Part shown: in pieces, positions 3,146 to 48,636 of the stretch | How the letters are laid out: every line of letters begins with the position of its first letter | Position numbering within the stretch: the stretch's first letter is position 1 | Origin: Phascolarctobacterium sp. ET69 | GTDB taxonomy: Bacteria; Bacillota; Negativicutes; Acidaminococcales; Acidaminococcaceae | Assembly: GCF_023336935.1 (NCBI RefSeq) | Contig: NZ_JAMBLR010000001.1 | Location: forward strand, 62,001 to 126,000 | Direction: 5' to 3' | DNA length: 64,000 bases | The notes under the pieces: generated by a model | Told to the model about the DNA's origin: nothing | The model's database searches: none | The model's input: only the letters and a program-made list of their open reading frames with translations | Position numbers and translations under genes: made by a program

Positions 3146-3310
3146 AGCAACGAACAGCACGGTAACCGTAATGCTGAATGCACTGTCAAAACTGCGGCGG
3201 CTGAATTTAGGGCACTCTGTAAGAGAGTCCGGTTACTATTCCGGACGGAATCGGAGGAGCCGCAGCATTTTGATGCGTTTAGCAGAATGGTTACTGGGCT
3301 GTTTATTGCT
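3146..3310 (+). ncRNA. Structured RNA candidate, copy A (pairs with copy at 48444-48589)
   Basis: A 165-base segment that pairs end to end. Outer helices are AGCAA/TTGCT, AACAGC/GCTGTT, GGTAACC/GGTTACT and TGCTGAATGCA/TGCGTTTAGCA (with G-U pairs). They close on CTGCGGC (3191-3197)/GCCGCAG. The inner core holds GGCTGAA, GTAAGAGA, a variable hairpin GTCCGG/CCGGAC (3227-3246) and GGAATCGGAGGA. The same core with different but compensating helices occurs at 48444-48589. No riboswitch or ribozyme family I know matches. It fills the gap between the que terminator and cggR; strand is arbitrary. A 68-codon open frame across it (3107-3313) looks fortuitous. Confidence 0.6.
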
Positions 3311-37463: not shown

Positions 37464-37519
37464 ATCTGCCTAAGCAGGATTTTTTTGAAATGCATAGAAT
37501 ATAATTTAACGGAAAAAAT

Positions 37520-37767
37520 CAACAGGTGAGGCGGTTAACCCCGCGATCTTAATAGGGAAGCCGGTGCGAATCCGGCGCAGTCCCGCTACTGTAATGGCGA
37601 GCTGTCTGCAAAATGTCACTGAAGCAATGCTTTGGGAAGGCGCAGCACGGCGATGAACCTGAGCCAGGAGACCTGCCTGTTACGAGTATCACAGCCTACG
37701 GGGGATAGGCGGGTATTTGCATATAGTTTTTGAAGTATATCCTCTTTGTTATAAAGGGGATTTTTTG
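37520..37767 (+). promoter_or_regulatory. Cobalamin riboswitch with downstream terminator
   Basis: Classic AdoCbl aptamer. GCCGGTGCGAATCCGGC and CAGTCCCGCTACTGT lie at about 37552-37601, and the B12-box GAGCCAGGAGACCTGCC at 37661-37677. A candidate -10 TATAAT is at 37500-37505. Beyond the aptamer, ATCCTCTTT/AAAGGGGAT plus TTTTTT (37738-37767) forms an intrinsic terminator ending about 20 bases before cobU. Cobamide binding should cause premature termination of cobU-cobT-cobS-cobT2-cobC. Confidence 0.93.
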
Positions 37768-48169: not shown

Positions 48170-48209
48170 TACCGCCCTTGCTTAAACGGTGAGGGCGGTA
48201 TTATTTTTA
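48170..48209 (+). terminator. Terminator after purL
   Basis: TACCGCCCT/AGGGCGGTA stem with a 13-base loop, then TTATTTTTA. Confidence 0.88.
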
Positions 48210-48218
48210 TGTAAAGCT

Positions 48219-48377
48219 GAATACGCAATGAATAAATCTTTTCAAATTCAGCAAAATGCAACGGCTCCTACGTGCGTGAACACGGCTGCGCTGCGGTTCA
48301 CGCATTTTTGTAAATACTTAAAATGAAGCCGCCGTTGTTTTGTCTTGAATTTTCAAAGGTTTACCCATTGCGTATTT
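48219..48377 (+). repeat. Long imperfect palindrome (MITE-like or structured RNA)
   Basis: Terminal inverted repeats AATACGCAATG (48220-48230)/CATTGCGTATT (48366-48376). The arms continue as CTTT-tc-AAATTCA/TGAATTT-tc-AAAG and CAAAA-CAACGGC/GCCGTTG-TTTTG, about 35 paired bases in all. The centre contains a second hairpin TGCGTGAAC/GTTCACGCA (48273-48304). No coding capacity. Either a small inverted-repeat transposable element or a stable RNA hairpin. Confidence 0.6.
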
Positions 48378-48443
48378 ATATTATAGTTGTATAAAATATA
48401 AAAGCAGTCAATTTTTATTTTAAAAGAGTTATGTAAATATGAG

Positions 48444-48589
48444 GCGAATGATTTATGCTGTTAAGTGAGAGCAAAAACTGCGGCGGCTGAAATTAAAATA
48501 CATAAGTAAGAGAGGTCAGCCGCGCAGCCTGACCGGAATCGGAGGAGCCGCAGCATTTTTGCAGAACTGAAACAGCGTGAATCATTTGC
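48444..48589 (+). ncRNA. Structured RNA candidate, copy B (homologue of 3146-3310)
   Basis: Same architecture as the element at 3146-3310 with different helix sequences. Outer helices are GCG-AATGATT/AATCATT-TGC, GCTGTT/AACAGC and GCAAAAA/TTTTTGC, then the identical CTGCGGC/GCCGCAG closing stem (48478-48484/48547-48553). The core GGCTGAA, GTAAGAGA and GGAATCGGAGGA is conserved, and the inner hairpin is GGTCAG/CTGACC (48514-48534). Compensatory differences support an RNA fold. It lies 48 bases before hemW, so a cis-regulatory leader is possible, but the neighbours of the two copies have no common function. Confidence 0.6.
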
Positions 48590-48636
48590 TGTGAGTTTTA
48601 ATAACAAAAATTTTACTTTGCAAGCGAAGGAACATT

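Follow-up and report, generated by a model that had tools for sequence, protein, structure and literature searches.

ERIC (enterobacterial repetitive intergenic consensus) elements are imperfect palindromes that lie between genes. Also described as IRUs, they are 127-base repeats with terminal inverted repeats, occur in multiple copies and form RNA secondary structure when co-transcribed (PMC2229807). Rickettsia palindromic elements (RPE), Correia/NEMIS and RUP are lineage-specific repeats of about 100–160 bases, also with terminal inverted repeats, and are regarded as mobile elements of the non-autonomous kind (PMC2229807). REP sequences and BIMEs are intergenic palindromes in alternating orientations (PMC2817692), and the recognised form of the integron attC site is a folded DNA hairpin (PMC11641012).

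The two sequences considered here, copies A and B, belong to an undescribed family of hairpin repeats of about 150 bases in a single genus of gut bacteria, Phascolarctobacterium. Both were found in a 64,000-nucleotide stretch of the Phascolarctobacterium sp. ET69 genome, referred to as the window. No described element for this genus was found in the open-licence literature searched. The family is probably, though far from certainly, a genus-specific interspersed hairpin element, ERIC- or RPE-like in its habit but with no relation to either seen in sequence, in which the core strand is folded and the arms are flipped by template switching.

The copies in the window

The original prediction placed two copies at distant sites in the window. 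Both are there, with three blocks, CTGCGGCGGCTGAA, GTAAGAGA and the 19-mer GGAATCGGAGGAGCCGCAG, in the same order in each. The 19-mer occurs exactly at 3247–3265 and 48535–48553, where 0.02 chance matches were expected and none of 100 shuffles reached two. The palindrome of copy A has exactly the predicted limits, 3146–3310, but that of copy B (about 48428–48605) extends slightly past the 48444–48589 first proposed. An inner variable hairpin is kept, as had been noticed, with GTCCGG/CCGGAC at 3227–3232/3241–3246 in A and GGTCAG/CTGACC in B. Both copies fold far more stably than their dinucleotide shuffles (z = -4.5 for copy A and z = -8.0 for copy B).

A 17-base piece of the core retrieved related copies from records labelled uncultured Phascolarctobacterium and Acidaminococcaceae. 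These were aligned with the window copies (alignment A1, 26 rows) to build a covariance model, R1; a second model, R2, covers the core. Because the copies in A1 had been retrieved through an exact match to part of the conserved 3' loop, invariance of that loop within the alignment is partly built in, and the loop does vary in the wider set of copies beyond A1. The features in the window are as follows, with strands referring to that of the conserved core.

3146–3310, + strand: copy A, full long imperfect hairpin (R1 match, 3.8e-29; palindrome limits)
3186–3273, + strand: core of copy A, comprising the P0 A/T tract, P1, the junction, the P3 hairpin and the conserved 3' loop (R2 match, 2.4e-20)
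3192–3198, + strand: 5' strand of P1 in copy A, CTGCGGC, paired to 3259–3265 and covarying
3227–3246, + strand: variable hairpin P3 of copy A, GTCCGG...CCGGAC (folding, covariation)
3247–3259, + strand: conserved purine-rich segment of copy A, GGAATCGGAGGAG, invariant in the 26 A1 copies and variable in divergent copies
3259–3265, + strand: 3' strand of P1 in copy A, GCCGCAG, followed by CATTTT (sequence, covariation)
48428–48605, + strand: copy B, full long imperfect hairpin (covariance model match, 8.7e-36; palindrome limits)
48472–48561, + strand: core of copy B (R2 match, 3.2e-25)
48209–48376, - strand: third copy, of a divergent subfamily 2, adjoining copy B in divergent orientation (R1, 7.2e-14; R2, 2.4e-15, its genome copy being among the R2 seeds; also R3, a model with this copy and a second one as its seeds)

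The third copy was absent from the original prediction and is separated from copy B by about 50–60 bases, or 63 by the limits that the model gives. A second subfamily-2 copy in the same genome (L206:5194-5362) is 28 bases from a main-family copy, also in divergent orientation. Chance is an unlikely cause of such neighbours in two of the two cases in this genome, and the two copies may form a paired unit. Another genome, G016, carries a separate and more divergent set (L194:4824-4912 and L195:5045-5133), with GTATGCCGCTTAG in place of GGAATCGGAGGAG, and the “invariant” loop thus varies between species.

Copy A is flanked by queF and cggR, and the neighbours of copy B are a hemW-like gene and the end of one that resembles purL, all named by eye from the translations. 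A small protein was considered and rejected: one frame appears by eye to be open through copy A, but copy B does not keep it. A search with 4227 Rfam models at gathering and relaxed thresholds gave zero matches to the element, in agreement with the earlier statement that it could not be matched to any known riboswitch, ribozyme or sRNA. The sole Rfam match in the window is a clear cobalamin riboswitch at 37507–37694 on the + strand (117 bits).

Pairing, covariation and the folded strand

The pattern first noticed, a conserved core within helices that vary in sequence and stay paired, is borne out by covariation. Among 50 distinct cores, 90.3% of the cells are paired, and 13 of the 25 core pairs have changed on both sides. 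None of 500 shuffles, which keep the relatedness of the sequences, scored as high; sliding the structure along the alignment gave at most 50% pairing, a control that is somewhat favourable because these sequences had also served to derive the structure. The cores support helices P0 (A-tract/T-tract), P1 (CTGCGGC/GCCGCAG), P2 and the variable hairpin P3. P2 (TTCG/CGGA) is weaker, with 84% pairing, and is poorly formed in copies A and B. P1 has full double changes only, with no wobble intermediates.

The outer arms are long and locus-specific in sequence, and their pairing is kept. Their mismatches at independent loci include 20 G-U and 6 A-C (p = 0.009), or 15 and 3 when counted by locus (p = 0.008), under a scoring that gave wobble pairs no advantage. 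In double-stranded palindromes, the two kinds would be expected in equal numbers, and the excess of G-U therefore suggests that it is the core strand that folds, either in RNA or in DNA when single-stranded. The remaining alternative is a mutation bias linked to the core strand.

Covarying helices and a strand-specific tolerance of wobble pairs, two marks of a functional structured RNA, are thus both present. However, template switching during DNA replication has been proposed as a source of simultaneous compensatory changes and of hairpin inversion in place, with mutation patterns in support (PMC8794818). Since template switching can produce compensatory changes, covariation alone is no proof of an RNA function.

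A multi-copy family of trans-acting sRNAs would account for several of these properties. Each copy would supply a promoter and a terminator of its own (P1 and the T-run after it), its orientation would be irrelevant, and the purine-rich segment would bind a protein or a target RNA. The strand-oriented core, the strong covariation and the bias of arm mismatches towards G-U fit this model, as do the terminator-like GCCGCAG-CATTTTT and the long retention of copies at their loci. However, no promoter-like sites were found at copy A, where 1.3 were expected, the pairing of the arms extends far past the putative terminator, and close strains differ in the presence of copies. A candidate partner, CsrA, is also missing: none was found in any of the 59 genomes of the family, which likewise contradicts a protein-titrating RNA of the CsrB type. 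An sRNA family is accordingly considered unlikely.

Distribution, inversion and turnover

In the genome that carries the window (1.88 Mb), R1 gave 17 matches, 14 clear and three weak (1e-4 or worse), two of the weak ones being reverse-strand readings of copies already counted. About a dozen more copies lie in this genome outside the window. In all six Phascolarctobacterium genomes examined, the covariance models found copies, 5–17 per genome, with R1 giving 5–15 matches in each. The element is thus conserved in relatives, one of the outcomes on which the original prediction had been staked. The six carriers are labelled uncultured Phascolarctobacterium, and the elements are about 145–180 bases long. 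R1 had zero matches in 53 genomes from 17 other genera of the family, and a class-wide sample of 380 genomes gave R2 no convincing match in the 374 from outside the genus; its lone match outside the genus (31.6 bits) is partial, weak and chance-like, and lies inside an apparent coding region. Among the genomes examined, then, the element is confined to a single genus. A phage origin was rejected, as the sole viral matches were to the 19-mer without the element and resemble coding sequence.

Every copy is intergenic; the flanking genes are convergent or co-directional, or in a few cases divergent. Short frames of 80–141 amino acids overlap a few copies but are not kept between them and were not counted as genes. 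Relative to co-directional neighbours, 15 copies are in the same orientation and 23 in the opposite one (p = 0.26), and 15 more are in convergent settings. The lack of a preferred orientation makes a cis-acting sense RNA unlikely. With neighbour genes that are also mixed, a riboswitch or other cis-regulatory RNA was rejected, and on the preferred reading the element does not regulate cggR or hemW in cis. At five loci (L184, L164, L202, L187 and L160), the flanks carry paralogous genes for large proteins of about 900–1600 amino acids, which by eye may be outer-membrane or surface proteins; the copies may be markers of rearrangement between these paralogues, or may promote it.

Loci shared between genomes were recognised by matching flanks. 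Of 16 such loci, eight hold the element in opposite orientations in different genomes, with flanks up to 94–97% identical. At the locus of copy A, the flanks are 97% identical to those of genome G018, and the core is identical yet inverted; the arms do not decide the breakpoint in this case. At three well-resolved loci, the whole element has turned, arms included, and flank homology restarts at the ends of the palindrome. Certain older “inversions”, between the window's genome (G000) and the rest, could be independent insertions into the same gap. The relatives are metagenome assemblies, but the perfect stretches of the arms are short, so that assembly should not have been misled.

A site-specific invertible switch, in which a recombinase turns neighbouring genes on or off, would explain why shared loci are often found in opposite orientations, and outward-facing TATAAT-like boxes can be seen by eye in some 3' arms. 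However, the outward box is not kept across copies, the flanking genes have no common theme, and the arms are free to vary. This reading is very improbable.

Several loci are empty in relatives. G014, G015 and G017 have no element at the site of copy A. At the site of copy B, G014 again has none, and the other relatives each have their own copy, with a core that is not closest to that of B. The L163 locus is empty in G017 and G018 and gives a clean pair of filled and empty sites, with a short AT-rich repeat flanking the element. Part of the empty sites could be explained by loss, through deletion between short direct repeats. Of the original prediction, the conserved core and its variable but paired helices stand, and this is not a recent two-copy duplication. 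The reading as an ordinary structured RNA tied to its site at cggR is not supported, however, given the 5–17 dispersed copies per genome, the lack of a preferred orientation, the empty cggR and hemW sites in relatives and the inversion in place.

Empty sites, intergenic dispersal and terminal inverted repeats would also suit a classical MITE, a non-autonomous transposon whose inverted ends are acted on by a DDE transposase. The ends of the element are near-perfect palindromes; however, their sequence is specific to each locus rather than common to the copies, and conservation is found in the interior of the element instead. Over all copies, the ends had no more direct repeats than the control (p = 0.42), giving no sign of target-site duplication. 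A classical MITE is thus quite improbable.

In a tree of the cores, copies group by locus among genomes that are about 95% identical. Copies from the window's genome cluster beyond expectation (nine changes versus 14.4; one of 500 shuffles), and most have CGAGAG or AAGAGAG where relatives have CGGGAG. This clustering, based on only 90 columns, may reflect turnover across the species, gene conversion or co-evolution with a trans-acting factor, and it is compatible with recent spread as well as with gene conversion. Three pairs of loci (L209/L162, L198/L161 and L200/L188) have 93–97% identity to relatives that are otherwise about 80–88% identical at the compared loci, which suggests recent exchange of element-bearing segments.

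A model for the element and its relation to known systems

The family has the properties of an interspersed palindromic element: its copies are multiple, dispersed and intergenic, each forms a long hairpin, and their presence or absence differs between close strains. The label of a classical MITE or REP element is not given, because the defining features were tested and not found. A REP/RAYT partnership is contradicted by the lack of any Y1 transposase in four of the six carriers, including the window's genome (G000, G014, G015 and G016). Similarly, no RVT_1 reverse transcriptase was found in four of the six (G000, G014, G015 and G017), against an RNA moved by reverse transcriptase in the manner of a retron or group II intron.

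In the preferred model of an interspersed hairpin element, the recognised unit would be the folded core strand, in the form of RNA made by passing transcription or of single-stranded DNA in replication. Either template switching at the hairpin's base or arm-to-arm recombination would keep the arms paired and flip the element. Template switching is probably how the arms are renewed and flipped, as it would account for their co-evolution, for the double changes in P1 without intermediates and for the flipping of whole elements. By itself, it leaves the conserved core, the wobble bias and the spread to new sites, and for this reason recognition of the folded core strand is proposed. Spread would presumably depend on a trans-acting system other than Y1/RAYT or RVT_1 that leaves no detectable target-site duplication.

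Some observations count against this model. Retention at orthologous loci and the conserved core suggest purifying selection beyond what a passive repeat would need, and no transposition machinery was found when Y1 and RVT_1 were sought in the carriers. There is a small chance that the family is instead a self-perpetuating structured RNA or single-stranded DNA element that does without the transposase and reverse transcriptase families tested. Its folded core strand would be both copied and recognised, and it would tolerate random orientation and fast-changing arms while evolving with a genus-specific trans-acting factor.

An interspersed hairpin element of this kind adds an undescribed repeat family to a common gut genus. 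It also offers a natural test of whether hairpin covariation arises from selection on RNA or from template switching in DNA replication, since the inversions, the co-evolution of the arms and the conserved core can be traced at the same loci in close genomes. It cautions against RNA discovery that rests on covariation alone.

The conservation of integron attC sites is terminal, in the R boxes, and the sites are linked to cassette arrays. The new element is set apart from them by description: it is conserved internally, and cassette arrays were not seen. Compared with REP and BIME sequences, its hairpin is much larger and its copies are far fewer. RUP targets TA sites, whereas the new element shows no duplication. 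Unlike the new element, which is always intergenic, RPE can enter genes too, as can the shorter Correia element. The likeness to ERIC is one of dispersal habit, set against ERIC by description rather than by direct sequence comparison; what distinguishes the new element are arms that vary by locus while their pairing is kept, an internal and strand-oriented core, and frequent inversion at orthologous loci.
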